From assembly GCA_001939945.1 (NCBI GenBank), contig MOEB01000017.1:1-64000 (forward strand): a stretch of 64,000 nt of DNA, in the 5' to 3' direction. The position numbers and the translations under genes are program-made. The stretch comes from Aerophototrophica crusticola. GTDB taxonomy: Bacteria > Pseudomonadota > Alphaproteobacteria > Azospirillales > Azospirillaceae. Positions 28,934 to 64,000 of this stretch are shown here, in pieces (position 1 is the first letter of the stretch; the number at the start of each line of letters is the position of its first letter). The notes below the pieces were generated by a model. It did no database searches and was not told the DNA's origin. It saw only the letters and a program-made list of their open reading frames with translations.

Positions 28934-29489
28934 CGGACCTCCTCGATACCATCATCCGGCCATGCGACCGGGCATGCGGCCCGGCCTGCGGGGCGCCCCT
29001 GGTGAGGTAAGCTGGGACGACTCCGCGCCAATTGAACGATGGTCCGGCGGAAAACCTGCGCGCATAACGAAAGTCTAGGGCGTAAAAACGATCTGCCGCG
29101 CCAAGGGCTTAGGCCTGAACTGCTGGAATCCCCGGGTGTTTGCCGCCTGCCTAGGCCAGTCTGCCTACCGCTATCGAACGGGCTGCGCCCTTACTTCAAT
29201 AAGCCCAGGGTCATAGGCCTGCCTAGGCAGACTAGCTGGTTTTCCGACAAACTGTAGACTGCTAATTATGTCAACAGATTAACAAAACCGGTAGCCCGCA
29301 GGGAATAACGACCTGAATTCGTCGGCCTCGTCCGGGTAGTACCCTGGGCGGGATTGACGCTTGCCTGGACGTATGTTGGCGAACTCCTTGGACGCTCAAG
29401 ACTAGTCCCAGGATTACTACAACCGCCAGGACAGGAGCGGGTTACCCCTGAAGGCCCCCGACCGGTTTTCCCGCGCCAGGAGCCTTCCC
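28934..29489. other. Long divergent non-coding region before the poly-HAMP kinase
   Basis: About 556 bases without a gene. It is A+T-richer at 29230-29330 (tgtagactgctaattatgtc, acagattaacaaaaccggta), the likely promoter zone of the kinase. A cluster of CTGCCTA motifs lies at 29146-29232. AGGAG at 29478-29482 is the ribosome site of the kinase. I see no small RNA signature I can support. Confidence 0.5.
29146..29232. promoter_or_regulatory. CTGCCTAGG operator-like motif cluster
   Basis: CCTGCCTAGGCC at 29146-29157, CTGCCTA at 29161-29167 and the perfect palindrome CTGCCTAGGCAG at 29219-29230 share one core. Repetition in a promoter-sized region suggests a regulator site upstream of the kinase. 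The regulator is unknown. Confidence 0.4.
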
Positions 29490-32400: not shown

Positions 32401-35400
32401 TGGCGCGCGGCGACCTGTCCCGCAAGATCACCGTGGACGTGAAGGGCGAGATTCTGGAGCTGAAGAACACCATCAACACCATGGTGGACCAGCTCAACGC
32501 CTTCGCCGGCGAGGTGACCCGCGTGGCGCGCGAGGTGGGCACCGAAGGGAAACTGGGCGGCCAGGCGCAGGTGCCCGGGGTGGCCGGCACCTGGAAGGAT
32601 TTGACGGACAGCGTGAACTCCATGGCGGGCAACCTGACCGCCCAGGTCCGCAACATCGCGGAGGTGGCGACCGCCATCGCCGGCGGCGACCTGTCCAAGA
32701 AGATCACCGTGGACGTGCGTGGCGAAATCCTCCTCCTCAAGGAGACGCTGAACACCATGGTGGAGCAGCTCCGCTCCTTCGCGGCGGAGGTGACCCGCGT
32801 GGCGCGTGAGGTGGGCACGGAGGGGCGCTTGGGCGGACAGGCTGTCGTGCCGGGCGTGGGCGGTACCTGGAAGGACCTGACCGACAACGTGAACCTTCTG
32901 GCGGCGAACCTGACCACCCAGGTCCGCAACATCGCGGAGGTGACCACGGCGGTGGCGCGCGGCGACCTGTCCCGCAAGATCACCGTGGACGTGAAGGGCG
33001 AGATTCTGGAGCTGAAGAACACCATCAACACCATGGTGGACCAGCTCAACGCCTTCGCCGGCGAGGTGACCCGCGTGGCGCGCGAGGTGGGTACCGAAGG
33101 AAAGCTCGGTGGTCAGGCGCAGGTGCCGGGCGTCGCCGGCACCTGGAAGGACCTGACCGACACGGTGAACGTCATGGCCGCCAACCTGACGGAGCAGGTG
33201 CGCGGCATCGTGAAGGTGGTGACCGCCGTGGCGAACGGCGACCTGAAGCAGTCCCTGACCGTGAAGTCGAAGGGTGAGGTGGCCGCCCTGGCGGAGACCA
33301 TCAACAACATGACGGCGACCCTGGCCACCTTCGCCGACCAGGTGACCACCGTGGCCCGCGAGGTGGGCGTGGAAGGCCGCCTGGGCGGGCAGGCCAACGT
33401 GCCCGGTGCCGCGGGCACCTGGAAGGACCTGACCGGCAACGTGAACCTGCTGGCCGCCAACCTGACCACCCAGGTGCGCGCCATCGCCGAGGTGGCCACC
33501 GCCGTGACCAAGGGCGACCTGACCCGCTCCATCCAGGTGGACGCCCGCGGCGAGGTGGCGGAGCTGAAGGACAACATCAACACGATGATCGACAACCTCC
33601 GCCTGACGACGGAGCGGAACACCGAGCAGGACTGGCTTAAGACGAACCTCGCCCGCTTCACCAACATGCTCCAGGGCCAGCGCGACCTGTCCACCGTGGG
33701 CCGGCTGCTGCTGTCGGAGCTGACCCCCCTGGTGGGCGCGCACCAGGGCGTCATCTACCAGATGGAGGGGGAGGAGGAACCCGGCATGCGGCTGGTGTCG
33801 GCTTACGCCGACGACCTTCCCGCCGGCCACCCGCTGCGCCTGGCAGTGGGCGAGGGGCTGGTGGGCCAGTGCGCCGCCGACCGCAAGCGCATCCTGATCA
33901 CGGAGGTGCCCAGCAACGTGGTGCCCATCCGCTCCGGCCTGTTCAAGGCGGTGCCGAAGAGCGTGGTGGTCTTCCCCGTGCTGTTCGAGGGCCAGGTCAA
34001 GGCGGTGATCGAGCTGGCCAGCATGACCGCCTTCACCGGCCTGCAACTGGCCTTCCTGGAGCAGCTCACCGCCAGCATCGGCATCGTGCTGAACTCCATC
34101 GAGGCGACCATGCAGACGGAGTCCCTGCTGCAACAGTCCCAGCAGCTCGCCGCTGAGCTGCAGTCCCAGCAGGGCGAGCTGCAGCAGACCAACGAGCAGC
34201 TGGAGCAGAAGGCCCAGCAGCTCGCCGAGCGCAACGTGGAGGTGGAGCGCAAGAACCAGGAGATCGAGCAGGCCCGCCGCGCGCTGGAGGAAAAGGCCAC
34301 CGAGCTGGCCCTGACGTCCAAGTACAAGTCGGAGTTCCTGGCTAACATGAGCCATGAGCTGCGCACGCCGCTGAACTCCATCCTCATCCTCGGCCAGCAG
34401 CTGGTGGACAACCCGGAGGGCAACCTGTCGGCCCGGCAGGTGGAGTTCGCGCGCACCATCCATGGCGCCGGCACCGACCTGCTGAACCTGATCAGCGACA
34501 TCCTGGACCTGTCGAAGATCGAGTCCGGCACCGTCAGCGTGGAGGCGGAGGAAATCCATGTGGGCACGCTGGTGGAGACGGTGGCCCGTCCCTTCCGGCA
34601 TGAGGCGGAAAACCGGCAGCTCGCCTTCGACGTGCAGGTGGACCCGCACCTGGGCCGCAACCTGTCCACCGACGCCAAGCGGTTGCAGCAGGTGCTGAAG
34701 AACCTGCTGTCCAACGCCTTCAAGTTCACCGACCAGGGCCGGGTGCGCCTGTCCGTCTCCGCCCGCGTGTCCGGCTGGACGCCGGACCACCCGGTCCTGT
34801 CCCAGGCGCCCCAGGTGGTGGCGTTCGAGGTGTCCGACAGCGGCATCGGCATCCCGGCGGAAAAGCAGCGCATCATCTTCGAGGCGTTCCAGCAGGCCGA
34901 CGCCAGCACCAGCCGCAAGTACGGCGGCACGGGCCTGGGCCTCGCCATCAGCCGCGAGCTGGCGAACCTGCTGGGCGGTGAGATCCAGTTGCGCTCCACC
35001 CCCGGCGTGGGCAGCGTCTTCACCCTGTTCATCCCCACCCGCTATCTGGGCCCCGGCTCGGGCCTGCGGCTGGTGACCAGCCCGGAGCCGCGGCCCCAGG
35101 CCCTGCTGCCGGTGGAGGCCGCCTGGCAGGCCGCCAAGGCGGAGCGGACCATCGAGGCGGTGACCGACGACCGGCACACCATCGAGAAGGGCGACCGCAT
35201 CCTGCTGGTGGTGGAGGACGACCCCCACTATGCCCGCATCGTCGCCGACCTGGCCCGGGACAAGGGGTTCAAGGTGCTGGTGGCGGCCCGGGGTGTGGAC
35301 GCGCTGGACCTCGCCAAGCGGTTCCAGCCGTCCGCCGTGTCGCTGGACGTGTTCCTGCCGGACATGCTGGGCTGGACGGTGCTGAGCCAGCTCAAGCACA

Positions 35401-36365
35401 ACCCGGCCACCCGGCACATCCCCGTGCAGATCGTGACCTTGGAGGAGGACCGCCGCCACGGCCTGTCCCGCGGCGCCTTCGCCTTCCTGACCAAGCCCAC
35501 CACGGCGGATGGGCTGGGGGCCGCCCTGGCTCGGATCAAGGAGTTCGCCCAGCCCCGCCGCAAGCGCCTGCTGGTCGTGGAGGACGACGCCGCCGAGCTG
35601 ATGTCCATCACCGAGCTGCTGGGCCATGACGACATCGAGGTGGTGCCCGCCGGCACCGGCCGGGAGGCCCTGCGCATACTGCGGGAGGAGCCCTGCGACT
35701 GCGTCGTGCTGGACCTGCGCCTGCCCGACATGACCGGGTTCGAGGTGCTGGAGAGCATCAGCGCCGACGCCGACCTGTCCGACCTGCCGGTGGTGGTCTT
35801 CACCGGCCGGGAGCTGTCGGCGGAGGAGGACGCCCGCCTGCACGCCATGGCCCGCAGCATCGTGGTCAAGGGGGTGGAGAGCCCGGAGCGGCTGCTGGAT
35901 GAGACCAGCCTGTTCCTGCACCGGGTGGTGGCCGAATTGCCGGAGCACAAGCGGCGCATGCTGGAGCGGCTGCATGGTTCCGACGACGATTTGGTCGGCC
36001 GCACCGTCCTGCTGGTGGACGACGACGCCCGCAACATCTTCGCCCTGTCGAGCGTGCTGGAGCGGCGGGGCATGCGGGTGCTGACCGCCACCACGGGCCG
36101 TGAGGCCATCGGCCTGATCGAGCAGACGCCCGACATCGCCCTGGTCCTGATGGACATCATGATGCCGGAGATGGACGGCTACCAGACCATGGGCGTGATC
36201 CGCGCCAACCCCGCCTTCCGGCGCCTGCCCATCCTCGCCCTGACGGCCAAGGCCATGAAGGGCGACCGGGAAAAGTGCTTGGAGGCCGGGGCTTCCGACT
36301 ACCTCGCCAAGCCGGTCAACACCGAACAGCTCCTGTCGGCGTTGCGCATGTGGCTGCACCGCTGA
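29490..36365 (+). CDS. Giant poly-HAMP hybrid histidine kinase with three receivers
   Basis: A 2291-residue soluble kinase with no signal peptide or membrane helix. Residues 38-176 hold divergent HAMP-like units. Residues 177-1372 are 13 tandem 92-residue units, each a HAMP pair ([58 protein letters not shown]). A GAF domain spans about 1390-1545 and a Gln-rich coiled coil about 1545-1610. HisKA has His1622 in [20 protein letters not shown], then an ATPase domain ([20 protein letters not shown]). Three receivers carry phospho-acceptors Asp1953, Asp2075 and Asp2222. The units closely match the repeats of fungal group III (Nik1/Os-1) osmosensing kinases, but those have about five or six. The first codon is GTG, seven bases after AGGAG; an ATG at 29499 is the alternative. 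The next gene starts 13 bases downstream. Confidence 0.95.
30018..33605 (+). repeat. 13 tandem 276-bp in-frame HAMP-pair repeats
   Basis: Units begin every 276 bases from 30018 (30018, 30294, 30570, 30846, 31122, 31398, 31674, 31950, 32226, 32502, 32778, 33054, 33330), each starting at a Phe codon. The first 11 are highly similar in protein. The last two are more diverged and lead into the GAF domain. Third-codon positions differ between most units, so the array is old apart from the 552-bp duplication. Confidence 0.95.
31950..33053 (+). repeat. Near-identical 552-bp tandem duplication inside the kinase
   Basis: Units 8-9 (31950-32501) and units 10-11 (32502-33053) encode identical proteins, and by eye differ at a single base, near the start (GCC versus GCG Ala codon). 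Neighbouring units differ at many silent sites. This indicates a very recent in-frame duplication or an assembly effect. Confidence 0.9.
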
Positions 36366-36378
36366 GGGGCCGGCAACA

Positions 36379-38286
36379 GTGGACGCACACCAGAAGGTCA
36401 ACATCCTCCTCGTCGACGACCAGCCGGCCAAGCTGCTGTCCTACGAGGTGATCCTGGCGGAGCTGGGGGAGAACCTGGTCAAGGCCGGCTCCGCCCGCGA
36501 GGCCTTGGAGCAGTTGCTGCGCCACGACATCGCCGTGGTGCTGGTGGACGTGGTCATGCCCGACCTGGACGGCTTCCAGCTCGCAGCATTGATCCGGGAG
36601 CACCCGCGCTTCGAGAAGACGCCGATCATCTTCATCTCCGCCATCATGATGTCGGACATGGACCGGCTGCGGGGCTACCAGGCGGGGGCCGTGGACTATG
36701 TCCCCGTGCCCGTGGTGCCGGAGGTGCTGCGCGCCAAGGTCCGCGTCTTCGCCGAGCTGCACCGCAAGACCAAGCAACTGGAAGCCCTGAACCGGGATCT
36801 GGAGCGGCGGGTCAGCGAGCGGACGGAGGCGCTGGAGGCATCCGGCGAGCGCCTGCGGCAGAGCGAGGAGCGGCGGTCCCTGGCGCTGGCCGCCGGGCAG
36901 ATGGGGTCATGGGACTGGAACCTGGCCGCCGGCACCATGGCCTGGGACGCCGGCCAGTGCCGCATCTTCGGCGTGGACCCCGACCGCTTCAGGCCGACGC
37001 CCACGTCCCTGGAGGCCCTGATCCACGCGGAGGACCGGGAGCGGATGCGGACCCTGCACCGGGAGGTGGCCGAGACGGGCGAGCCCCGGCAGGAGGAGTT
37101 CCGCATCGTCCGCCCCGACGGGGAGGTGCGCTGGTGCTTCGGCACCGTCGTTGCCACCGGCGGTGCCGTGGGCGGCGGCAGCCAGGCGGGGGAACGGGCC
37201 ACCGGCCTGTCCGGCGTCGTGCTGGACATCACCGAGCGCAAGAAGGCCGAGCACCGCCAGTCCCTGCTGGTGCGGGAGGTGGACCACCGGGCCAAGAACG
37301 CCCTGGCCGTCGTCCAGTCCGTCCTGCGCCTGACCAAGGCGGACGACCTGAACGGTTTCGTCCAGGCGGTGGAGGGGCGCATCCGCGCCATCGCCTCCGT
37401 CCACACCCTGTTGTCGGAAAGCCGGTGGGAAGGCGCCGACCTAGCCCGCCTGGCGCGGGACGAACTGGCCCCCTACCAGACCGACCAGGTGAACCGGCTG
37501 AAATGCCAGGGCCCCGCGCTGGTGCTGCGGCCCGCCACGGCCCAGACCCTGGCCCTGGCGCTGCATGAGCTGGCGACCAACGCCGCCAAGTACGGCGCCC
37601 TGTCCGTGCCCGCGGGCAAGGTCTCCCTCACCTGGGCCCTGGCGGGGGAGGAACTGCGCCTGTCCTGGCGGGAGTCCGGCGGCCCGGCCACCACCCAGCC
37701 CCGGGCCAAGGGCTTCGGCCTGCGGGTGATCAGCGCCAGCATCGAGCGGCAGCTTTCCGGCAAGGTGGTCTTCGACTGGTTGGCTGACGGGCTGTCCTGC
37801 ACCATCACCCTTCCCGCCACCGACGTGGTCACCCCGCCGGAGGAGCCCCCCGGGACCACCGAGGACGCCCAGGTGGGCGGGACGGCGGAAGCCACCCCCG
37901 CCCTGCCCCCGGCCCCCCGGGTGCTGTTGGTGGAGGACGAGGCCCTGGTGGGGCTGATGATGGAGCAGGTGCTGGCCGACTTCGGGGCGGAGGTGGACGG
38001 CCCCGTGGGCAACCTGCCCCAGGCCCTGGCCCGGGCCGGCAGCGCCAGCCTCGACTGCGCCATCCTGGACGTGAACCTGGATGGCGCCGCGGTCTATCCC
38101 GTGGCCGACGTGCTGGCCGACCGCGGCATCCCCTTCGTCTTCCTCACCGGCTACGACGCCGGCGTGGTGGAGGGCCGCCACGCCCGGGCCCCCGTGCTCC
38201 AGAAGCCCGTCGAGGCCGCCGCCCTGCGAACCACCCTGGCCACCCTGCTGGCCCCGCGGGAGGCGAAACGGCTGGCGGTGGGGTGA
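36379..38286 (+). CDS. REC-PAS-HWE kinase-REC hybrid sensor
   Basis: A 635-residue soluble protein. The N-terminal receiver (about 7-125) has Asp57 in VVLVDVVMPDLDGFQ, but where receivers carry a conserved Lys it reads GAVDYVPVPVVPEVL. A coiled coil leads to a PAS domain (about 160-285). The HWE box REVDHRAKNALAVVQSVLRL holds His303, followed by LALHELATNAAKYGAL. A C-terminal receiver (about 520-630) has LDCAILDVNLDG and the lysine in PVLQKPVE. It starts with GTG 13 bases after the giant kinase stop and has GAGGGG upstream, so it is very likely cotranscribed. It is a plausible phosphotransfer partner of the upstream kinase, inferred from the operon. Confidence 0.92.
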   Translation: MDAHQKVNILLVDDQPAKLLSYEVILAELGENLVKAGSAREALEQLLRHDIAVVLVDVVMPDLDGFQLAALIREHPRFEKTPIIFISAIMMSDMDRLRGYQAGAVDYVPVPVVPEVLRAKVRVFAELHRKTKQLEALNRDLERRVSERTEALEASGERLRQSEERRSLALAAGQMGSWDWNLAAGTMAWDAGQCRIFGVDPDRFRPTPTSLEALIHAEDRERMRTLHREVAETGEPRQEEFRIVRPDGEVRWCFGTVVATGGAVGGGSQAGERATGLSGVVLDITERKKAEHRQSLLVREVDHRAKNALAVVQSVLRLTKADDLNGFVQAVEGRIRAIASVHTLLSESRWEGADLARLARDELAPYQTDQVNRLKCQGPALVLRPATAQTLALALHELATNAAKYGALSVPAGKVSLTWALAGEELRLSWRESGGPATTQPRAKGFGLRVISASIERQLSGKVVFDWLADGLSCTITLPATDVVTPPEEPPGTTEDAQVGGTAEATPALPPAPRVLLVEDEALVGLMMEQVLADFGAEVDGPVGNLPQALARAGSASLDCAILDVNLDGAAVYPVADVLADRGIPFVFLTGYDAGVVEGRHARAPVLQKPVEAAALRTTLATLLAPREAKRLAVG

Positions 38287-50994: not shown

Positions 50995-51903
50995 GTGCGG
51001 ACGAGAGGAATTAAACGAGAAACCGCCCTGGCGCTCATCCCCGCCTTGGCACTGGTCCTCGCGGCGCCCCTGGCGGCCGCGTCGGAGAAGCCAGTCAGGG
51101 CCGCGGCGGGCGGGAAGCTGGTGGCCACCGGTGGGGTCAGCACCATCGAGGGGGCCGCGGGCGGCGGGATCGTGCCCTGGGCGGTGATCGGCGGCTATGG
51201 CAGCCGCGGGCAGGTGGGGGCGAACGCCTTCTACACCCGGGTGGACGTGGCCGATTACCATTTGGACGTGGTGGGCGGGCTGGTCGGCATCGATGACCGG
51301 ATCGAGCTGTCGTTCGCCCGCCAGCGCTTCGACACGGAGGCCGTGGGCGCGGCCCTGGGCCTGGGCAAGGGCTACGCGATCCGGCAGGACGTGGCCGGGC
51401 TGAAGGTCAGGCTGTTCGGTGACGCGGTGCTGGACCAGGACACCTGGCTGCCGCAGGTGGCGGCCGGGGTGCAGTACAAGTGGAACGACCGGGGCGGCCT
51501 GCTGTCCGCCATCGGCGCGCGGCGGGACGCGGACGCCGACTTTTACGCCAGCGCCACCAAGCTGTTCCTGGAGCCGGGCATCCTGGCCACCGCCACCCTG
51601 CGCTACACCCGCGCCAACCAGGGCGGCATCCTGGGCTTCGGTGGCGACAAGGGCGACGGCCGCACCCTGCACCCGGAGGTCAGCGTGGCCTGGCTCGCCT
51701 CCCGCAACTGGGTCTTCGGGGCGGAGTACCGGTCCAAGCCGGACAAGCTTGGCATCGCCAAGGAGGATGACTGGTGGGACGCCTTCGTGGCCTGGGTCCC
51801 GAACCGCCACCTCTCCGTCACCCTCGCCTACGCCAACCTCGGCAGCATCGTGAACCAGAAGGGCCAGGACGGTATCTATGCGTCGCTCCAGATCGGGTTT
51901 TAG
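50995..51903 (+). CDS. DUF3034 family outer-membrane protein
   Basis: A 302-residue exported protein of the DUF3034 family. A signal peptide (ALALIPALALVLAAPLAAAS) precedes a beta-rich body with repeated hairpins (SRGQVGANAFYTRVDVADYH, KGYAIRQDVAGLKVRLFGDA, NRHLSVTLAYANLGSIV), ending in IYASLQIGF, like an outer-membrane barrel. The function is unknown. The GTG start has GAGG seven bases upstream. Divergent from the cupredoxin gene with only 87 bases between, and overlapping the globin gene by 26 bases. Confidence 0.85.
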   Translation: MRTRGIKRETALALIPALALVLAAPLAAASEKPVRAAAGGKLVATGGVSTIEGAAGGGIVPWAVIGGYGSRGQVGANAFYTRVDVADYHLDVVGGLVGIDDRIELSFARQRFDTEAVGAALGLGKGYAIRQDVAGLKVRLFGDAVLDQDTWLPQVAAGVQYKWNDRGGLLSAIGARRDADADFYASATKLFLEPGILATATLRYTRANQGGILGFGGDKGDGRTLHPEVSVAWLASRNWVFGAEYRSKPDKLGIAKEDDWWDAFVAWVPNRHLSVTLAYANLGSIVNQKGQDGIYASLQIGF

Positions 51904-52303
51904 CCTCCTCCTGGCAGGGTCCCTGCTGTTCTCCGCCCCCGCCCTGGCCAACGACCCCCTGGCGGCGTTCGGCGGGTACGAGGGGCTGCACCGCATCGCC
52001 ATCGACACGCTGGACCGCTCCATGGCGGACCCGCGGCTGCGACCCTTTTTCGTGGAGCAGGACCGGCCGGACATCGCCAAGAAGCTGGCCGACCAGTTCT
52101 GCCAGGAGCTGGGCGGCCCCTGCACCTACAAGGGCAAGGACATGAAGAAGGCCCATGCCAAGCAGGAGATCGGCATGCAGCACTTCAACGCCCTGGTGGA
52201 GGTCTTGCAGGACAGCATGGATGCGGCGGGCGTGCCCTTCCGCGACCAGAACCGCCTGCTGGCGCGGCTGGCGCCCATGTACCGGGACATGGTGCGGGAT
52301 TAA
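51878..52303 (+). CDS. Periplasmic group 1 truncated hemoglobin
   Basis: A 141-residue truncated globin with a signal peptide (FSLLLAGSLLFSAPALA), unusual because most truncated globins are cytoplasmic. The globin fold runs from YEGLHRIAIDTLDRSMADPR through FCQELGGPCTYKGKDMKKAH; the His in MKKAHAKQEIGMQHF is in the usual distal/proximal region. It probably binds O2, NO or related ligands in the periplasm. The ATG lies inside the 3' end of the DUF3034 gene, so the two are translationally coupled. Confidence 0.88.
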   Translation: MRRSRSGFSLLLAGSLLFSAPALANDPLAAFGGYEGLHRIAIDTLDRSMADPRLRPFFVEQDRPDIAKKLADQFCQELGGPCTYKGKDMKKAHAKQEIGMQHFNALVEVLQDSMDAAGVPFRDQNRLLARLAPMYRDMVRD

Positions 52304-55475: not shown

Positions 55476-55691
55476 ATGCGTTCGTTCGACGGACAGCGAT
55501 CCGACAACCAGCCGATCCGCCGCACGCCCGACCAGAAGCGCCGGGCCCTGCTGCAGATGGAGACCGAGCTGGCGGCCTTGCCGGCCAAGGCCACCCCCAC
55601 CCTGCGCGCCAGCCTGGAAGCCCGCATCAAGGCGTTGAAGGAAGAGCTGGCCAATGGCGGCCCGCCCCGGCGGGAGCGTGACCGGGACTGA
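55476..55691 (+). CDS. Small charged helical protein
   Basis: A 71-residue hydrophilic product. IRRTPDQKRRALLQMETELA and KATPTLRASLEARIKALKEE form amphipathic helices. It is charged throughout and lacks a membrane segment. Unknown family. It has AAGGGAG at good spacing, its own ATG at 55476, and is divergent from the ArsR gene by 69 bases, so the region holds two divergent promoters. It may be a small DNA- or protein-binding factor. Confidence 0.65.
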   Translation: MRSFDGQRSDNQPIRRTPDQKRRALLQMETELAALPAKATPTLRASLEARIKALKEELANGGPPRRERDRD

Positions 55692-55742
55692 CCGCCCGGC
55701 CCGACCCTGCCCACCCCGGCCCCGTCGCGGGCCGGGCCCGAT

Positions 55743-55771
55743 GGGGTGACGCCGCGGCCGGCGGTCACCCC
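55743..55771. terminator. Hairpin at the 3' end of the HisKA_2 kinase gene
   Basis: GGGGTGAC (55743-55750) and GTCACCCC (55764-55771) form a perfect 8-bp stem. It includes the stop codon of the minus-strand kinase and faces the end of the small plus-strand gene. There is no clear T-run, so termination is likely but not certain. Confidence 0.45.
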
Positions 55772-57081
55772 AGGGGGAACTCCAGCCGCACGGACGTGCC
55801 CCCCGGCCCCGTCTCCAGCGACAGTTTCCCATCCACCTGGTCCGCCAGGCTTTCCAGCAGCCGCATCCCCATGCCGGAACCCCGGTTTTCCCGCGGCATC
55901 CCGACCCCGTCATCCGACACCAGCAGGTGGCCCAGCACCCCCTTTGGGCTGCGCCCCAGCCGCACCGTCACCTGCCCGCCCCGTCCCGCCGGGAAGGCGT
56001 GCTTCAGGGCGTTGGCCACCGCCTCGTTGACGATCAGGCCGATGGCGACGGCATTGTCGAGGGTGCCCGGCACCGCCTCCACCCGGCAATCCAGCAGCAC
56101 GTCGTCGCGACCCGCCAACCCGTGCGCGGCCGTGGCCACGTCGCCCAGGAAGCTGTCGAAGCCCAGCTCGGACAGGCAGCGTGATCCCAGCAGCCGGCGC
56201 TGCACCGCTGCCACGGCCCCCAGACGCCCGGCCAGCCGGCGCAGCGGCCCGGCCAGCGCTTCCTCCGTCCCCGGCCCCAGTTCCATGTCCACCAGCGTCA
56301 GGGCGAGCTGCAGGTTGTTGTAGACCCGGTGCACCACCTCCCGCATCAGCAGGTCCCGTTCCCCCAGGGCACGGCGCAGGGCGGTGACGTCGGTGGCCAA
56401 CCCTTCCACCCGGTCCGGCCCGGGACGGACGTCCAGCAGCACGTGGAGGGTGCGGCCGTCGGCGCCGCGGAACTCCACCTCCGCCCCGCGCAGGCCGTCT
56501 TCGGTCATCTCATGCCAGACGCCCGGGGCGCCGGCGCCCTGCATCAGGGACACAAGGTTCGTTCCCGCCAAATCGTCAAAGCCCAGCAGGCGATGCAGGG
56601 CGGGGTTGGCCTCCAGCAAGGTCCCGTCGCGGCGGGACAGGAAGACGCCCACCCCCACCCGGCTGAACAGGGACCGGTAACGGTCCTCCGCCTCCCTCAG
56701 CGATCGCCGCTCCGCCTGCCGGCGCACCAGCCCTTCCAGCGCGCCCCGCAGGCGCGGCATGCGCTCCCGGCCCTTCAGGACATAGTCGTCGATGCCGGCC
56801 TTCATGGCTTCCACCGCGCCTTCCTCCCCCTGGCTGCCGGTGAACAGCACGGCGGCGCAGTCGGGGTTGGCGGCCTTCAGACGGCGGAACACTTCCAGCC
56901 CCGTGGACCAGCCGAGGGAGAAGTCAAGCACGGCCACGTCCGGTGCGCCGTCTGCCAGGGCTTGGTCCAGTTCCTCCGGCGTGCCGACGGCGGCGATGTC
57001 CGCCCCGGGCAGGGCCTGTGCCACGGTCCGCCCGGTCAGGAACCGGTCATCCGGATTGTCGTCCACCACAAGGACACGCAT
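55765..57081 (-). CDS. REC-PAS-HisKA_2 sensor kinase
   Basis: A 438-residue protein with the receiver at the N-terminus (MRVLVVDDNPDDRFLTGRTV, Asp53 in VAVLDFSLGWSTGLEVF, Lys in DDYVLKGRERM), a PAS domain (about 140-225) and a HisKA_2 box (LLMREVVHRVYNNLQLALTL, His241), then an ATPase domain (LIVNEAVANALKHAFPA, SDDGVGMPRENRGSGMGMRL). A receiver fused ahead of its own kinase suggests a phosphorelay input. GGAGGTG lies seven bases before the ATG at 57081; a longer frame to 57498 is rejected. About 247 bases separate it from the divergent cytochrome gene. Confidence 0.92.
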   Translation of the reverse strand: MRVLVVDDNPDDRFLTGRTVAQALPGADIAAVGTPEELDQALADGAPDVAVLDFSLGWSTGLEVFRRLKAANPDCAAVLFTGSQGEEGAVEAMKAGIDDYVLKGRERMPRLRGALEGLVRRQAERRSLREAEDRYRSLFSRVGVGVFLSRRDGTLLEANPALHRLLGFDDLAGTNLVSLMQGAGAPGVWHEMTEDGLRGAEVEFRGADGRTLHVLLDVRPGPDRVEGLATDVTALRRALGERDLLMREVVHRVYNNLQLALTLVDMELGPGTEEALAGPLRRLAGRLGAVAAVQRRLLGSRCLSELGFDSFLGDVATAAHGLAGRDDVLLDCRVEAVPGTLDNAVAIGLIVNEAVANALKHAFPAGRGGQVTVRLGRSPKGVLGHLLVSDDGVGMPRENRGSGMGMRLLESLADQVDGKLSLETGPGGTSVRLEFPLG

Positions 57082-57328
57082 CAGCGGCACCTCCCACCCT
57101 GGCGAGCCAACACCGGAAGCCCCGGCGCGGTTGCGCCCTCCCCCACCGGAGTGGGAGGCGGAGCGGGATTGCGGCAGGACGAAGCGAGCCGGCCTATGCC
57201 AGAACCCGATAATGCGGTGTGCAGAAAATTCGACCTCACGCTTATGGGGTAGATTAACTATTGCCAAGGGGAACGCCTTCTGCTGAAGTCCTACGACCAA
57301 TAATGCATTCGCGAGTAGGGGGAGAGCG

Positions 57329-59818
57329 ATGCATCTGAAAAAGGTTGTGGTTGGCGCCGGTATGGCGCTTGGCGTCCTGGCATTGGCCGGGTGTGGGGAT
57401 GACAATCCGAAGCCTGGGCACGTGCTGGACGAGGCCAAGCGGGCCGGTCGCACGGTGGCATCCTTCCCGGCGGCTGACGAGGACTTCTTCAAGGACATGG
57501 ACGGGGGTTACCGGGGGGTGAACCTGTCCAAGGCGGAGGTCCAGGGGCGCAACAACTGGATCATCTGGACCGGTGGCAACGACCGGCTCTGGGACCATCT
57601 GACCAACAGCGCCTTCGGCACCTTCGACCTGCTGAAGACCATCAGCAACCATCCCAGCCTGAAGGCCAGCCGCGACAACCGCTGGGGCTACCTTGGCCTG
57701 GTGAACGAGCCCTGCTTCAAGAAGGCCGAGAAGGGCGACCCCGACCGGTTCGGCCTATGGCTTGACGTGCGCGACCCGTCCTGCGCCCCCGACCCCTTCG
57801 CCGACGAGGCCAAGTACCCCGGCGTGAAGATCGGCGCCCGCGGCCAGGACCTCGGCAAGGGCAAGACCCTGCCGGTGGGCTCCTACTACGGCTATCCCAC
57901 GGGCATCGTCGGCTTGCGCCTGTTCCCCAACCCGGACTTCGACGCCAAGGCGGCGGCCGAGTGGGACGCGGAGCGGTACTACACCGACCCGAGCTATTAC
58001 AACCGCAAGGACCTGGTCCGGCCCTACAGGGTCGGAATGGGCTGCGGTTTCTGCCATGTGGGCCCGGACCCGGTTAACCCGCCGGCCGATCCGGAAAACC
58101 CAAAGTGGGAGAATTTGAGCAGCGTCGTCGGCGCCCAGTTCTTCTGGATCGACCGCATCTTCGCCTGGAACGCGGACCAGAAGAACTTCATGGTCCAGCT
58201 GGTGCACACCTCGCGGCCGGGCACGCTGGACACGTCGCTGGTCTCCACCGACTACATCAACAACCCACGCACCATGAATGCCGTCTACATGACGGCGGAA
58301 CGGCTGGAGACGGCGCTGAAGCTGGGCAAGGAGCGGCTGGCCGGGGGCGCCCTGAACAACAAGCAGTTCCAGGACTTCCAGGGTTATGAGGACTTCAACA
58401 AGTTCTACAAGGCCCCGGACACGGTCTGGACACCCCATGTGCTGAAGGACGGGGCCGACAGCGTCGGCGTGCTGGGCGCGCTGAACCGCGTCTACATCAA
58501 CATCGGCCTGTTCAGCGAGGAGTGGCTGCTGCACTTCAACCCGTTGGTGGGCGGCAAGACGGTCAGCCCCATCAAGATCGAGGACGGCCGCAAGAACTCC
58601 GTTTACTGGCAGGCGACCGAAGCGCAGACGCCGCTGGTGGCCCAGTTCTTCCTGAACAAGGACATCGGCGCCCCGCACAAGCTGGCCGACGCCCCCGGCG
58701 GCAAAGCCCACATGACCGCGGACCCCGCGGTCCTGGAGCAGGGCAAGGTGGTTTTCGCCGAGAACTGCGCCGCCTGCCATTCCAGCAAGCAACCCGACCT
58801 TCCCGCCGGTGTGGACCCGCGGGACAGCGCCGGGCCCGACTACCTGAAACGGTTCGATGCCTGGTGGGCCCATGTGCAAACCGAAGGCTACAAGGCCAAG
58901 ATGCGGGAGATCGTGCTGGCACCCGACTTCCTGAACGGCAATTACCTGTCCACCGACAAGCGCGTGCCGGTGACGCTGCTGGAAACGAACGCCTGCAGCC
59001 CGCTGGCCACCAACGCCATCGCCAACAACATCTGGGACAACTTCTCCAGCCAGTCCTACAAGGACCTGCCGTCGGTGGGCACCATCACGGTGCGCCACCC
59101 CATCACGGGTGAGCCGAGCAGCTACCAGATGCCGGCGGGCGGTCGCGGCTATACCCGCGTGCCCAGCTTGGCGAGCCTGTGGTCGACGGCACCCTACCTG
59201 TTGAACAACACCGTCGGGCCGGACATGGGGGCTTACAGCCCGAACCCGACCGTGGAGTACCGGGTGCAGACCTTCGAGGCCTCCATGCGCCAGATGCTCT
59301 GGCCGGAGACACGCAAGAAGGACAAGGTCCTGGGCGACAAGGGCGTGGGTGAGATCTACCGCACCACGGCGCAGAGCTACCTATCCGTCCCTGCCGGCTA
59401 CCTGCCCGAGGGGCTGCAAGGCCTGCTGAACCCGCTGAACCGCTGGTTCCCCTGGCTGTTCGGCGAGGGTGGCGTGCGGATCGGCCCGATCCCGGCCGGC
59501 ACCCCGGTGAACCTGCTGTCGAACCTGGAACTCCGCCTGGACGACGCCAGCCTGGGCGAGAACCTGAAGCAGGACGCCAAGCTGCTGGAACTGCTGCTGA
59601 AGGGTACCAAGGACCTGAAGGCGCTGCCGGAGAACGCGACGGACGAGCAGGCGCGGGCGGTCTTCGCCAACCTGGTCAACCCCCTGCTGAAGCTGAGCAA
59701 ATGCCCGGACTTCGAGGTGAACCGGGGCCACTATTTCGGCACCGGCCGGGTGCCGGGGACCAAGGCGCTGACCGATCAGGAAAAGGACGCCCTGATCGAG
59801 TTCCTGAAGACCTTCTGA
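57329..59818 (+). CDS. Large diheme c-type cytochrome lipoprotein
   Basis: An 829-residue exported lipoprotein. The signal ends in LALAGCGDD, with Cys22 the lipidation site. Two heme c motifs are seen: CGFCH at residues 239-243 and CAACH at 480-484. Long stretches around them (GSYYGYPTGIVGLRLFPNPD, GGYRGVNLSKAEVQGRNNWI) are not those of small cytochromes. It recalls the RoxA/RoxB class of large diheme oxygenases, but I cannot place it firmly. The periplasmic or outer-leaflet position and the GMC gene 78 bases downstream suggest it accepts electrons from that oxidoreductase. A terminator-like hairpin follows. Confidence 0.85.
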   Translation: MHLKKVVVGAGMALGVLALAGCGDDNPKPGHVLDEAKRAGRTVASFPAADEDFFKDMDGGYRGVNLSKAEVQGRNNWIIWTGGNDRLWDHLTNSAFGTFDLLKTISNHPSLKASRDNRWGYLGLVNEPCFKKAEKGDPDRFGLWLDVRDPSCAPDPFADEAKYPGVKIGARGQDLGKGKTLPVGSYYGYPTGIVGLRLFPNPDFDAKAAAEWDAERYYTDPSYYNRKDLVRPYRVGMGCGFCHVGPDPVNPPADPENPKWENLSSVVGAQFFWIDRIFAWNADQKNFMVQLVHTSRPGTLDTSLVSTDYINNPRTMNAVYMTAERLETALKLGKERLAGGALNNKQFQDFQGYEDFNKFYKAPDTVWTPHVLKDGADSVGVLGALNRVYINIGLFSEEWLLHFNPLVGGKTVSPIKIEDGRKNSVYWQATEAQTPLVAQFFLNKDIGAPHKLADAPGGKAHMTADPAVLEQGKVVFAENCAACHSSKQPDLPAGVDPRDSAGPDYLKRFDAWWAHVQTEGYKAKMREIVLAPDFLNGNYLSTDKRVPVTLLETNACSPLATNAIANNIWDNFSSQSYKDLPSVGTITVRHPITGEPSSYQMPAGGRGYTRVPSLASLWSTAPYLLNNTVGPDMGAYSPNPTVEYRVQTFEASMRQMLWPETRKKDKVLGDKGVGEIYRTTAQSYLSVPAGYLPEGLQGLLNPLNRWFPWLFGEGGVRIGPIPAGTPVNLLSNLELRLDDASLGENLKQDAKLLELLLKGTKDLKALPENATDEQARAVFANLVNPLLKLSKCPDFEVNRGHYFGTGRVPGTKALTDQEKDALIEFLKTF

Positions 59819-59826
59819 TCGTGACG

Positions 59827-59856
59827 GCGGGGCCGGCCCGGGGGGACCGGCCCCGC
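59827..59856 (+). terminator. GC-rich hairpin after the cytochrome gene
   Basis: GCGGGGCCGG (59827-59836) and CCGGCCCCGC (59847-59856) form a perfect 10-bp stem with a 10-base loop, followed by TTCCTTCC. It may be a partial terminator or mRNA-processing signal, reducing expression of the downstream GMC gene relative to the cytochrome. Confidence 0.65.
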
Positions 59857-59896
59857 TTCCTTCCACCTGACAATCGACTGAACCGGGGGACGGGCC

Positions 59897-61792
59897 ATGT
59901 CGGGCGCGGACAAGGGATACGAGTACATCGTCGTGGGTTCCGGTGCCGGCGGCGGCACGCTGGCAGCCCGGCTGGCGGAGGCGGGCAAGCGCGTGGTCCT
60001 GCTGGAGGCCGGCGGCGACCCGCGCAAGCTGCGGGGGGGTGACCCCACCAGCGACGGGGTGAACCGGCTGCCGGAGGACTATGACGTCCCGGCCTTCCAC
60101 CCCTTCGCCTCGGAGAACGAGGCGATGCGCTGGGACTTCTTCGTCCGCCACTATGCCGACACCGCACAGCAGGAGCGGGACCCGAAATATGTGCGGGAGT
60201 TCGAGGGCAAGCCCGTGGACGGCGTGCTGTACCCGCGCGCCGGCACCCTGGGCGGCTGCACCGCCCACAATGCCCAGATCATGGTCTACCCGCACAATGA
60301 CGACTGGGACAACATCGCCCGACTGACGGGCGACACGTCCTGGTCGGCCAAGAACATGCGCAAGGTGTTCGAGCGCATGGAGAATTGCCAGTACCGCTTC
60401 TTCCTGTATCGCTGGCTGGCCAAGCTGGGCATCAACCCCACCCGGCACGGCTGGGGTGGCTGGATGCATACCCAGAAGGCCATCCCCATCGAGGCCCTGG
60501 GCGACGAGGACCTGGTCACCACCATCGTGGACAGCGCCGCCAAGGCCATCAAGGCCCAGCCCGACAAGGAGAAAGGCCTGGAATGGCTGCTGCAGGGCCA
60601 GGGCGACCCCAATGACTGGCGGCTGGTGAAGCAGAACGCGACCGGCCTGCGCTACCCGCCCCTGTCGAACCGCAACCACCAGCGCATGGGCGCCCGGGAA
60701 CGGGTGATCGAGGTGCAGGAGCGGTTCCCGGACCGGCTCACCGTCATCCTGGACGCGCTGGTCACCCGCGTGCTGTTCGCCGAGGACGACCCGACACGGG
60801 CGGTCGGCGTGGAATACATGCAGGGACAGCGCCTGTACCGCGCCCACTGGAACCCGTCAGAGGGTGAGCCGGAGCGGAAGGCGCTCTATTGCACAGGGGA
60901 GGTGATCCTCTGTGGCGGTGCCTTCAACACGCCGCAGCTGCTGATGCTGTCGGGTATCGGCCCGGTGGACCACCTTGCCCAACACGGGATCACGCCGCGG
61001 GTGGACCTGCCCGGCGTGGGCAGCAACATGCAGGACCGCTACGAGGTCGGCGTCGTCAACGAGATGAAGGACGATTGGGAAGTGCTGAAGGGCGCCAAGT
61101 TCGCCCCCGGCGACCCCCAGTTCCGGGAGTGGGAGGACGGGCGCGGCGGCGTCTACACCACCAACGGGGCGGTGCTGGCGGTGATCAAGCGCTCCTTCGC
61201 GGACCGGCCCCTGCCCGACCTGTTCTGCTTCGCCCTGCTGGGCTTGTTCAAGGGCTACTTCCCAGGCTATTCCAAGCTGTTCCCGGAGCACCTGAACTAC
61301 ATGACCTGGGCCATCCTGAAGGCCCACACCAACAACCGCGCCGGGACGGTCCGGCTGCGTTCCGCCGACCCGCGGGACACGCCGCTGATCGACTTCCACT
61401 ACTTCGAGGAAGGCACTCCCGATGGCGGGGAGGACCTGGATTCGGTGGTGGCGGGGATCAAGTTCGTCCGCACCATGACCAAGCCCCTGAAGAAGGCCGG
61501 CCTGATCGTCAAGGAACACCTGCCTGGCGAGCACCTGGAGACGGACGAGGAGTTGCGCCAGTTCGTGCGTGACGTGGCCTGGGGCCACCATGCCTCCTGC
61601 ACCTGCCCCATTGGCAATCGGGAGGATGGCGGCGTGCTGACCAGCGACTTCCGGGTGCACGGGACCAAGGGCCTGCGGGTGGTGGATGCCAGCGTCTTCC
61701 CCCGCATCCCCGGCTTCTTCATCGTCAGCGCCGTCTACATGGTGGCGGAAAAGGCCGCCGACGTGATCCTGCAACAGTCCGGCCAGGCCTGA
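59897..61792 (+). CDS. GMC-family FAD oxidoreductase
   Basis: A 631-residue flavoprotein. The FAD motif is IVVGSGAGGGTLAARLAEAG with LLEAGGDPRKLRGGDPTS. The GMC signature is AGTLGGCTAHNAQIMVYPHN and CGGAFNTPQLLMLSGIG. The active-site His is in VAWGHHASCTCPIG, with DASVFPRIPGFFIVSAVYM at the C-terminus. Members oxidise alcohols or cholesterol-type substrates. No signal peptide is seen, so it may act in the cytoplasm or be carried with a partner. Neighbours are the diheme cytochrome and the patatin, suggesting a membrane-linked oxidation of a lipid-derived alcohol; that is inference. Confidence 0.92.
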   Translation: MSGADKGYEYIVVGSGAGGGTLAARLAEAGKRVVLLEAGGDPRKLRGGDPTSDGVNRLPEDYDVPAFHPFASENEAMRWDFFVRHYADTAQQERDPKYVREFEGKPVDGVLYPRAGTLGGCTAHNAQIMVYPHNDDWDNIARLTGDTSWSAKNMRKVFERMENCQYRFFLYRWLAKLGINPTRHGWGGWMHTQKAIPIEALGDEDLVTTIVDSAAKAIKAQPDKEKGLEWLLQGQGDPNDWRLVKQNATGLRYPPLSNRNHQRMGARERVIEVQERFPDRLTVILDALVTRVLFAEDDPTRAVGVEYMQGQRLYRAHWNPSEGEPERKALYCTGEVILCGGAFNTPQLLMLSGIGPVDHLAQHGITPRVDLPGVGSNMQDRYEVGVVNEMKDDWEVLKGAKFAPGDPQFREWEDGRGGVYTTNGAVLAVIKRSFADRPLPDLFCFALLGLFKGYFPGYSKLFPEHLNYMTWAILKAHTNNRAGTVRLRSADPRDTPLIDFHYFEEGTPDGGEDLDSVVAGIKFVRTMTKPLKKAGLIVKEHLPGEHLETDEELRQFVRDVAWGHHASCTCPIGNREDGGVLTSDFRVHGTKGLRVVDASVFPRIPGFFIVSAVYMVAEKAADVILQQSGQA

Positions 61793-61873
61793 CCCTGCCT
61801 GCCCCCCGCGTCCCCCGCGCGGCGGCGGGGGAGCGGTTCCCCGACCAGCCGCCGCCAAGAAACGGGGGCAATC

Positions 61874-64000
61874 ATGGTGTATGACTGGCGCAAGGGGCCG
61901 CCCGTGCCGGGCCAGCCCTGGACGACGGAGCAGGTGCTGCGGCACGAGGTGTCGGAAATCCACGGGAAACGGATTCCCGACGATGTGGGCGGGGTGGAAC
62001 TGAACCGGCAGTTGAACGGGTTGGACAGCGCCGCGCTGTGCATTTCCGGCGGCGGCATACGCAGCGCCACTTTCGCCCTGGGCATGATCCAGGCCCTGGC
62101 CGCCAACCCGCGCAAGCCTGACGGGGATCCCGCGGACCCATCCCGTTCCCTGTTGGGCCGGTTCAACTACCTGTCCACCGTATCCGGCGGCGGCTATATC
62201 GGGAGCTGGCTGACGGCTTGGCTGGGGCGTCGGCCCTTCCCGGAGGTGGTCCGGCAGCTTTCTGGTCGGCCCGACGGCCCCGATGTGGAGCCCTCCCCCA
62301 TTGAGGACCTCCGCCGGGACAGCAACTACCTGACCCCGCAGGTGGGCATCGCCTCCGTCGACACCTGGGCGGCCGGGGCCATGGTGGTGCGGAACCTGTT
62401 CCTGATCTGGGGGCTGGTGCTGACCATCCTGGGCACGCTGGTGCTGGTGTTGAAGCTGGGATTCTCCATCCTTGCCACCATCCCAACCAGTGAGGCGGTG
62501 TATGGGAACCTGGGCCTGCTGGTCTTCATCCTCTTGACCGGTGTCGGGCTGGTGCTGCTCGGGCAACGCTTCACCCTGGTCAACTACGCCGGCGGACCCG
62601 GCAGCGCGAACCAGGCGAGGTTCTGGAGCCATGGCGTTGCCATCACCCTGCTGGGGGCGCTGCTCTGGACGGCGTGGTTGGCAACGCCCCTGGGCCAGAT
62701 CCTGATGTTGCTGCCTTTCTGGTTCCTGGGGCCGGCGATGGGGATCGGAGGCTTGGTCCTGTTCACCGCCTCTTACCTGCTCGCGACCTTCACCGGCCTG
62801 CCGCTCAAGGTCCACAAGGGGCTGACGCTGGCCAAGTGGTCCCTCGCGGGCGTGGCATATGGCGTTTTCCTGGCTGCCGGCATCCTGCTGCTGGGCGGGG
62901 TGGAGTACAGGCCCCTGCGCTTCCTGCTTGTCGCCTTGCTGGGCCCGGGCTGGATGGTGGCCGCCCAGCTGACGGCGGAGACGGTGTTCGTCGCCCTGAC
63001 CAGCCGAGCATCCCGTTCCGACGCCGAGCGGGAATGGCTGGCCCGCTCCGCAGGCTGTTACGCCTTCTGCGGCATCGTTTGGACCTTGACCGCCACGCTG
63101 GTGCTGCTGGGCTCCCGCCTGACGGACGAGCTGTTCCATGAGGCCGGGCAACTCTGGGAGATGGCAACCGCCGGCGGCTTCGTCACCACGGCCGCCCTGA
63201 CGCTGCTTGCCGGGTCCAGTTCCAAGACCCCTGCCCAAGGGGCGCCGGATAGCAAGATCGGCCAGGCCCTGACGATCATCCAGTCCATCGGCGGGCCTGT
63301 GTTCTTCATCATCCTGCTGGTGCTGGTGTCGGGGCTGGTGGATGCGGTCGTGCTAGGGGGATCGCTGCTGGACCTGCTGCTGGGCCCGTCCCGCGACGCG
63401 CGGGAGGAGGCGTCGGCCCTGTCCGTGCTGATCTTCGGGACCAGCCCGCCCTATACGGAGTACCGGCCGACCCTGAAGCCGCTGTCGGTCGCCCTGTTGC
63501 TCACCGCATTTGCGGGATGGGGGGTGTCGCGCGCCGTCAACATCAACCGCTTCTCCCTGCACGACCTTTATCGTAACCGGCTGGTCCGCGCCTATCTGGG
63601 CGCCACCCACCGGGACCGCAAGCCGAACCCCTTCACCGGGTTCGACATGGCCGACAACCCGCCCATCTGGAAGATCTGGCCGGGCCGCGGGGGAAAGGGC
63701 GCGGGCGCGACGCACAAGCGGCTGTACCACGTGCTCAACATGACCCTGAACCTGGTCTCCACCCGGAACTTGGCCTGGCAGCAACGCAAGGCCATGTCCT
63801 TCGTCGTCACTCCCCGCCACGCCGGTGCCGCGGACCTGGAGCCGGTGACCGACCGGCAAGGCCAGCCGCTGGACTACCATGGCGCCTACCGCCCGTCGGA
63901 CGAGTATGGTGGGAATACCGGCATCACCCTCGGCACGGCCATGGCCGTCTCCGGTGCCGCGGCAAACCCGAACATGGGCTACAACTCGTCCCCCTCGGTC
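61874..64000 (+). CDS. Membrane-spanning patatin-like phospholipase (partial)
   Basis: Open reading frame from the ATG at 61874 that stays open to the last base (709 codons seen), so the 3' end is missing. The N-terminus has the patatin glycine-rich oxyanion loop ALCISGGGIRSATFALGMIQ and the nucleophile in YLSTVSGGGYIGSWLTAWLG. At least six membrane helices follow (LFLIWGLVLTILGTLVLVLK, LLVFILLTGVGLVLLGQ, IGGPVFFIILLVLVSGLV). The last residues (TAMAVSGAAANPNMGYNS) match a conserved part of large membrane patatins, which places the catalytic Asp beyond the window. It would hydrolyse acyl lipids. It starts 82 bases after the GMC gene. Confidence 0.9.
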   Translation, partial: MVYDWRKGPPVPGQPWTTEQVLRHEVSEIHGKRIPDDVGGVELNRQLNGLDSAALCISGGGIRSATFALGMIQALAANPRKPDGDPADPSRSLLGRFNYLSTVSGGGYIGSWLTAWLGRRPFPEVVRQLSGRPDGPDVEPSPIEDLRRDSNYLTPQVGIASVDTWAAGAMVVRNLFLIWGLVLTILGTLVLVLKLGFSILATIPTSEAVYGNLGLLVFILLTGVGLVLLGQRFTLVNYAGGPGSANQARFWSHGVAITLLGALLWTAWLATPLGQILMLLPFWFLGPAMGIGGLVLFTASYLLATFTGLPLKVHKGLTLAKWSLAGVAYGVFLAAGILLLGGVEYRPLRFLLVALLGPGWMVAAQLTAETVFVALTSRASRSDAEREWLARSAGCYAFCGIVWTLTATLVLLGSRLTDELFHEAGQLWEMATAGGFVTTAALTLLAGSSSKTPAQGAPDSKIGQALTIIQSIGGPVFFIILLVLVSGLVDAVVLGGSLLDLLLGPSRDAREEASALSVLIFGTSPPYTEYRPTLKPLSVALLLTAFAGWGVSRAVNINRFSLHDLYRNRLVRAYLGATHRDRKPNPFTGFDMADNPPIWKIWPGRGGKGAGATHKRLYHVLNMTLNLVSTRNLAWQQRKAMSFVVTPRHAGAADLEPVTDRQGQPLDYHGAYRPSDEYGGNTGITLGTAMAVSGAAANPNMGYNSSPSV

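Follow-up and report, generated by a model that had tools for sequence, protein, structure and literature searches.

The first 64,000 nucleotides of contig MOEB01000017.1 of Aerophototrophica crusticola (assembly GCA_001939945.1), hereafter the window, carry near their end three consecutive open reading frames (ORFs) on the + strand that encode a dihaem lipoprotein (CYT), a GMC flavoprotein (GMC) and a putative acyl hydrolase of the cPLA2/patatin fold (the hydrolase). The contig comprises 103323 bases of a 6.06 Mb genome. Among close relatives the CYT and GMC genes form a conserved pair, to which part of the family adds the gene of a cPLA2/patatin-fold membrane protein, either as the next gene after GMC or in one ORF with it. 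We tentatively read this set, on sequence, structural models and analogy, as an accessory and probably horizontally spread module of lipid-acyl oxidation. The initial annotation of this DNA had placed the three genes in this order with small gaps and had ascribed CGFCH and CAACH motifs to a dihaem lipoprotein; the ORF coordinates and motifs agree, and the gaps measure 78 bp (CYT-GMC) and 81 bp (GMC-hydrolase). A search of open-licence full text, mostly titles and abstract openings, found no named pathway for the set, which does not show its absence from print.

A conserved gene pair with facultative partners

A profile of eight CYT proteins (A1) scanned over a genome collection matched 526 stretches, 462 of which encode relatives. 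The best 80 of the 462 were kept for the survey, and counts out of 80 describe these close relatives, many of them from Variovorax or Acidobacteria; the surveyed records come from Alpha- and Betaproteobacteria, Acidobacteria, Nitrospira, Sorangium and Candidatus Binatia. A GMC gene belonging to the window's subfamily shares the locus with CYT in 74 of the 80 (cut by contig ends in L034, L041, L053 and L085, and present as a C-terminal fragment in L042). It lies downstream on the same strand within 400 bp in 55 loci and is otherwise placed in 19, being upstream, divergent or a few genes away, or accompanied by a split CYT gene, as in L055, where GMC is downstream; in all these arrangements the pair stays together. 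Four of the six loci lacking GMC (L035, L059, L062, L094) are short contigs or contig ends, and two, with ~10 kb on both sides, are misses: L054 (Sorangium So ce26) and L080. Chance adjacency of CYT and GMC appears unlikely, since the A. crusticola genome has only 2 GMC_oxred_C genes.

The hydrolase, searched with profile A3, was found in 18 of the 80 loci (cut in L027 and L098). Thirteen have the order CYT-GMC-hydrolase: five rhizobial, four from Chromobacterium, three from Nitrospirillum and one from a Terriglobia metagenome-assembled genome. In the remaining five it follows CYT directly (L078, L080, L092), is divergent (L040) or lies ~8 kb away (L098). Nitrospirillum viridazoti and Rhizobium halophytocola are among the soil strains that have all three genes. 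The proposal that the three genes act as one module, for which a neighbourhood survey had been named beforehand with rare adjacency as the outcome counting against it, thus stands for CYT and GMC and draws further support from fusion ORFs, whereas the hydrolase is facultative.

Beyond the survey, CYT was detected in 5 of 398 genomes of the phylum, that of A. crusticola included (E-value 1e-20). Among the other four loci GMC is adjacent in three and none is shown at the distant G078; in G042 the hydrolase gene is present too and is oriented divergently to CYT. A set of 250 genomes of the class was searched at unequal thresholds, E 1e-30 for CYT, 1e-20 for the hydrolase and 1e-100 for the GMC subfamily; with the A. 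crusticola genome counted each time, 4, 5 and 1 of them matched, respectively, and none of the other hits combined hydrolase and CYT. One sampled genome of the same genus has none of the three genes. The module is thus accessory and sporadic, from which we infer horizontal spread.

Of 21 plasmid records, five were examined, one of them lacking annotation. Two carry GMC and hydrolase as a single ORF without stops beside CYT, of 1562 aa in a Mesorhizobium onobrychidis plasmid and of 1537 aa in a Rhizobium sp. CCGE532 plasmid (L013 and L014). Both fusion ORFs hold the FAD motif, WGHHA, both SGGG motifs and DGGHF, and FPRIPG was found only in the 1537-aa ORF. Plasmid pRL11 of R. johnstonii has an NADH:flavin oxidoreductase, a pair of small dihaem proteins separated by a small ORF, CYT, GMC and a patatin (Pfam 5e-11), this patatin having no BLAST match to the window hydrolase at E 1e-5; Sinorhizobium sp. 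B11 has the same set minus the patatin. In Sinorhizobium fredii CCBAU 45436 (L011:14466-17355) the patatin gene of the module appears as two overlapping ORFs and is possibly broken.

These arrangements bear on the possibility that CYT and GMC are the functional pair and that the lipase-like gene is an independent, hitch-hiking neighbour. The low frequency of the hydrolase in the survey agrees with it, as does the occurrence of hydrolase relatives in 4 further genomes of the class that gave no match to CYT. Against it stand the fusion on two plasmids and the BLAST-dissimilar patatin in the same slot of R. johnstonii, to which the correlation of CYT and hydrolase distances may be added (r 0.88, 17 loci; 0.77 for CYT/GMC and 0.78 for GMC/hydrolase; 0 of 2000 Mantel permutations each), where shared descent was not removed and which is no proof. 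We regard this alternative as distinctly improbable. It is the filling of one slot by two dissimilar lipase-type proteins, together with the fusion, that argues for a lipid role.

Other loci, not the window, yielded further partner families: c2 (profile A8) in 41 of the 80 loci, c3 (A6) in 36, a DyP-like family (A7) in 32 and c5 (A5) in 31. One A7 member passes the Pfam cut-off for Dyp_perox_C, with DyP_N under it and TIGR01413 at E 1.4e-22 yet also under its cut-off. The A5 profile matches the coral catalase-related allene oxide synthase 1u5u (E 1e-4). No family match above cut-off was obtained for c2 or c3, nor any PDB match for c3, and the A5 and A8 profiles found nothing in the A. crusticola genome in a search without a positive control. 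The hydrolase (18 loci) and c3 and/or DyP-like partners (36 loci) co-occur in one locus only (L098), a mutual exclusion with Fisher p 9e-5 that is uncorrected for relatedness and is no proof. Further dihaem relatives adjoin CYT in some loci.

Predicted properties of the three proteins

Residue conservation was counted over 56 aligned CYT, 30 GMC and 17 hydrolase sequences, those of the window included. CYT starts with a lipobox-like LAGC containing Cys22; Cys occupies that position in 41 of the 56, and a lipobox-like pattern was seen in 66 of 89 sequences scored. As in RoxA and FadCcp, two CxxCH motifs occur in one predicted exported protein; both are present in 56/56. Of the Pfam models only the generic Cytochrom_C exceeds its cut-off (28.3 vs 21.3 bits), with Cytochrome_CBB3 and RoxA-like_Cyt-c (PF21419, 13.3 vs 26.7) under theirs, as is the NF040606 model (40.9 vs 150). 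The RoxA and RoxB equivalog models gave no match and that of RoxC 13.2 vs 900 bits, and none of three family members checked (window, L013, L015) reaches a full-length family model above cut-off. Membership of CYT in RoxA or NF040606 was therefore considered and rejected, the scores lying under cut-off and the motif His being absent.

The AlphaFold2 (AF2) model of CYT (mean predicted local distance difference test score, pLDDT, 84.0; predicted TM-score 0.88) was aligned by VIA to MauG with Z 9.7 (4.3 A, 269 residues), a moderate value because best Z scores of 7-8 are common with this program. The top five rows are all MauG and the next have Z <=3.0; RoxA is absent among the rows aligned. The model suggests that the overall fold is of the MauG or dihaem peroxidase type. 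A weak sequence relationship to RoxA is indicated by the match of profile A1 to 4b2n (E 0.0019), in which His801 falls on RoxA His641, an axial ligand (PMC6311187); this C-terminal His is present in 56/56 and lies in a block that is not significant by itself. The MauG motif PY(F/L)HNGSVP, whose residue roles are described in PMC6311187 and PMC4496055, has no His in CYT; of the 8 A1 rows two divergent ones (L013, L017) have it. The predicted fold and the weak RoxA link do not point to a simple electron-transfer cytochrome.

A profile built from the small dihaem proteins that resemble RoxA (A9) gives a strong match to RoxA (E 4e-20), and in profile-profile comparison of A9 with the deeper CYT profile A2 just 27 columns, around the second haem, could be aligned. 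The A. crusticola genome holds, outside the window, a 617-aa open frame matching A9 (G000:C203:34525-35268; E 1.2e-16 and 3.9e-12). In L032, L038 and L025 a second CYT paralogue, represented by two ORFs in L025, lies downstream of CYT, which recalls the PA2077/PA2078 pair.

The second gene product is, by its sequence, certainly a GMC flavoprotein, in agreement with the initial assignment: GMC_oxred_N (PF00732, 65.2 bits) and GMC_oxred_C (PF05199, 102.9 bits) both exceed their Pfam cut-offs, and an FAD motif GxGxxG is found near the N-terminus. The closest PDB relatives are choline-oxidase-like (E 2.6e-43), and the PRK02106 and betA models score far under cut-off. Of the catalytic His and its His/Asn partner, located by reference to His466 and Asn510 of choline oxidase, the former is kept as His565 and the latter is replaced by Phe608. 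In a simple hydropathy test 75 of the 77 GMC proteins scored, the window's included, lacked a hydrophobic leader (exceptions L017 and L096; three sequences with a GPGG variant were left out of the count).

It had originally been suggested that the GMC enzyme oxidises a lipid alcohol or acyl chain and passes electrons to the periplasmic cytochrome, which would resemble GMC dehydrogenases that possess a cytochrome subunit. Such enzymes exist, and in gluconate 2-dehydrogenase-type and Collimonas complexes the GMC gene likewise adjoins that of a c-type cytochrome; the tight CYT-GMC pairing fits this arrangement. The Collimonas enzyme has a Tat-signalled small subunit (PMC12542777), and no such subunit is encoded among the three ORFs here, the rest of the genome not having been searched for one. 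The cytochrome of the present set is MauG-like in predicted fold, and its GMC protein begins directly at the FAD motif without a leader, so that direct transfer to the predicted exported CYT is doubtful; Phe608 further weakens the assumption of alcohol oxidation. We therefore consider this version unlikely. GMC also differs from choline oxidase and dehydrogenase, its best PDB relatives, in the family-model scores and in Phe608, and resembles them in the position of the catalytic His.

The third gene product of 968 aa has no Pfam match at E 1 over its full length, PF01734 (patatin) included, and no NCBIfam match at E 0.001. Its AF2 model (pLDDT 74.9) was aligned by VIA to cPLA2alpha (1cjy) with Z 22.8 (3.8 A, 392 residues) and to cPLA2delta with Z 22.4; PlpD (16.2), CapE (14.9), CapV (14.3), VipD (12.9) and patatin (12.2) follow. 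cPLA2 entries span 21.0-22.8 and patatin-fold entries 12.1-16.2, and rows outside the family have Z <=6.0. Foldseek gave no match at E 0.001, its best being cPLA2delta at E 0.017, and a PDB sequence search with the hydrolase profile gave a best E of 0.15, among membrane and designed proteins. The motifs of a putative Ser-Asp dyad, Ser104 and Asp766, occur in 17/17 and, with the predicted fold, place the protein in the cPLA2/patatin superfamily; a strict GXSXG is absent, position 102 being Thr in the window and Thr or Ser in all 17. Fold and SGGG.R, S-G-G and DGG motifs are shared with group IV cPLA2 and with PlpD, CapV, CapE, VipD and patatin; the hydrolase differs from them in having no Pfam match and in that its domain is split by a membrane bundle, in which the model shows ten helices of at least 20 residues. 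The two motifs flank the bundle, whose ten helices would place both halves of the hydrolase domain on one side of the membrane. The "patatin" phospholipase of the initial annotation is thus borne out by the modelled fold but not by Pfam, and the protein is best described as a putative acyl hydrolase.

Coordinates, hairpin and neighbouring genes

The features of the three genes are collected in Table 1. The hydrolase ORF (L002:6875-9781) crosses the window end and stops at contig base 64780.

Table 1. Positions of the CYT, GMC and hydrolase genes, their motifs and the intergenic hairpin (window coordinates; conservation counts include the window sequence)
Feature	Position	Strand	Basis or remark
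CYT, dihaem lipoprotein, 829 aa, predicted export, MauG-like predicted fold, weak RoxA sequence link	57329..59818	+	ORF, alignment, AF2 model
CYT haem site 1, CGFCH, aa 239-243	58043..58057	+	C239, C242, H243 in 56/56
CYT haem site 2, CAACH, aa 480-484	58766..58780	+	C480, C483, H484 in 56/56
CYT MauG-motif position, APYLLNN, aa 621-627	59189..59209	+	Leu625 vs RoxA His517; His in 0/56
CYT His801	59729..59731	+	Aligned to RoxA axial ligand His641; invariant, 56/56
GC-rich hairpin in CYT-GMC gap	59826..59857	+	Possible attenuator or processing stem
GMC flavoprotein, 631 aa, signal peptide none seen	59897..61792	+	Pfam GMC_oxred_N, GMC_oxred_C
GMC His564-His565	61586..61591	+	His565 at choline oxidase His466 position; 30/30
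GMC Phe608	61718..61720	+	Choline oxidase Asn510 position; Phe in 30/30
Putative acyl hydrolase, cPLA2/patatin fold, inserted membrane bundle	61874..64000	+	First 709 of 968 aa in window
Hydrolase oxyanion-type motif SGGGIR, aa 58-63	62045..62062	+	S58, G59-G61, R63 in 17/17
Hydrolase putative nucleophile motif VSGGGY, aa 103-108, Ser104	62180..62197	+	17/17
Hydrolase membrane helix bundle, aa 162-575, inside hydrolase domain	62357..63598	+	AF2 model
Hydrolase second catalytic-type motif DGGHF, Asp766	past window end	+	17/17

The hairpin in the CYT-GMC gap folds with -31.1 kcal/mol (z -1.6; for the 56-base stretch an equally good fold arose in 14 of 200 dinucleotide shuffles) and has no U-run, and a terminator scan detected no site in 55600-62200, where chance alone would give 3.6. 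In several alphaproteobacterial relatives a hairpin after CYT recurs by place and not by sequence, in some with a T-run: folds of chosen gaps placed one in L019 (Allorhizobium terrae, 12429-12452), L020 (12454-12481), L021, L022, L023, L024, L030 and L031, and none in L026 and L029, whose gaps are short. The terminator scan gave two sites in L019 (0.4 expected, above chance) and one in L020 (0.6 expected, not above chance). Among the same-strand CYT-GMC gaps longer than 25 bp (38 of 55) a stem was present in 12 and absent from 26, some of them long. Some stems are common in shuffled sequence, being reached in the following numbers of 200 mononucleotide shuffles: 0 for the window and L023; 1 for L019; 3 for L022 and L031; 6 for L024; 10 for L020; 11 for L033; 13 for L030; and, outside that group, 0 for L096, 3 for L052, 34 for L034 and 42 for L053. 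The GMC-hydrolase gap falls within ~45 bp in L019, L020, L022, L030 and L031 and exceeds the window's 81 bp in L029. Selection may have kept the hairpin as an attenuator or for processing, and uneven expression is possible, with CYT transcribed alone and GMC-hydrolase reached by read-through or from a separate start; the PA2078-PA2077 operon is likewise unevenly expressed, according to PMC4496055.

Several further genes were noted. A response regulator-PAS-HisKA_2 kinase (55765-57498, - strand) is divergent from CYT, and a bacterial-like globin (PF01152) with a leader that looks signal-like by eye lies at 51878-52303. Two overlapping ORFs of ~2300 aa each occupy opposite strands at 29442-36431 (-) and 29490-36365 (+), a region with DNA matches on Rhizobium plasmids annotated as HAMP-domain sensor kinase/response regulator hybrids. 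In L013, L019, L020, L024, L031 and L033, from rhizobia and Nitrospirillum, DUF4331-like, DUF4198-like and HupE/UreJ-like genes (each named from one member or annotation) flank the module on the opposite strand.

Proposed lipid-acyl oxidation and its alternatives

Lipid-acyl oxidation is the best reading of the set because a cPLA2-fold partner occurs in one set of lineages and peroxidase- or allene-oxide-synthase-like partners in another. In the scheme that we propose, the hydrolase would split acyl chains off membrane lipid on the cytoplasmic side, and GMC, held beside it, would oxidise an oxygenated chain or hand electrons to quinone; that GMC can sit next to the hydrolase is evident from the fusion ORFs. 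CYT, predicted to be exported and mostly lipid-anchored, would carry out haem chemistry with O2 or peroxide on lipid acyl chains at the periplasmic side, by analogy with RoxA acting on polyisoprene (PMC4496055, PMC6311187 and PMC6797691) and with the Pseudomonas aeruginosa 10S-DOX acting on oleate.

A number of observations weigh against this scheme. The link of CYT to known oxygenases is loose: Foldseek alone found nothing significant for its model; profile A1 scores a cbb3-oxidase subunit (E 9.2e-05) better than RoxA; the RoxA match consists of two blocks, neither significant singly (independent E-values 4.7 and 3.1), one aligning H801 with H641 and the other aligning L625 with the MauG-motif residue H517; RoxA is not among the matches of the deeper profile A2 at E 0.5; the RoxA-like Pfam and NF040606 scores are under cut-off; and none of the 56 aligned sequences has the motif His that RoxA, PA2077 and PA2078 share. 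In the c5 family Asn stands where an alignment by eye places the distal His of catalase (12/12). Alcohol oxidation is not assured, given Phe608 in GMC, and CYT and GMC are predicted to lie on opposite sides of the inner membrane. Gene content and layout also dissent: 62 of the 80 loci, some of them short contigs, lack the hydrolase, which is found in 4 other genomes of the class that have no match to the CYT profile at E 1e-30, a hairpin separates CYT from GMC in the window and some relatives, and the divergent CYT relatives of G481, G544 and L018 have no clear GMC neighbour. At G481 and G544, the two divergent class neighbourhoods examined (a third hit, G457, was left out), CYT adjoins two small RoxA-like dihaem proteins, and G544 has a weak GMC match (3.3e-07).

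Repair of oxidised lipids is a rival reading: the hydrolase would strip peroxidised chains, CYT would serve as a lipid-hydroperoxide peroxidase and GMC would take hydroxy or keto chains, protecting the membrane without producing a signal. The MauG-like fold of CYT, the peroxidase-like and catalase-like nature of the alternative partners and the scant overlap of the partner sets all speak for it, but the absence of the His that RoxA and PA2077/PA2078 conserve speaks against it, and we judge repair to be rather unlikely, if worth keeping in mind. Within the lipid-acyl oxidation reading we slightly prefer an oxylipin-forming outcome to the handling of oxidised lipids. A bolder extension, which we think improbable, is that the module is a prokaryotic counterpart of the eicosanoid cascade, spread horizontally across several phyla and making signalling oxylipins: the hydrolase would release unsaturated acyl chains, the MauG/RoxA-like CYT would oxygenate them, and GMC, in some cases joined covalently to the hydrolase, or catalase/allene-oxide-synthase-like and DyP-like enzymes elsewhere, would turn the products into oxylipins.

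Comparison with known systems shows partial likenesses. PA2077 (10S-DOX) and PA2078 (7,10-DS), also known as FadCcp proteins, are like CYT exported and carry two CxxCH, as judged from their descriptions and not by sequence comparison; both retain the MauG-motif His that CYT lacks, and they form a two-gene operon for which no GMC or lipase partner is described in the available parts of PMC4496055 and PMC5155153. PA2077, which like PA2078 was grouped with RoxA by its authors, converts oleate to 10-H(P)OME with O2 and needs both haems, and the hydroperoxide that it makes is toxic when PA2078 is missing (PMC4496055). RoxA and RoxB share with CYT two covalent haems, and the C-terminal axial His and a GY..P.L..W.TAP block align; the family score under cut-off and the missing motif His set CYT apart. 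We know of no GMC or lipase partner of RoxA or RoxB.

Few bacterial enzymes are known to oxygenate fatty acids, and these have been little placed in pathways; PA2077/PA2078 are a known dihaem case. A conserved CYT-GMC pair whose partners, lipid-linked or peroxide-linked, can replace each other would provide a concrete and testable set of genes from bacteria that live in soil or with plants. It adds a predicted cPLA2-fold protein whose hydrolase domain encloses a membrane bundle, an ORF that fuses GMC to this hydrolase, and a dihaem family that lies, for the three members checked, outside the full-length models.

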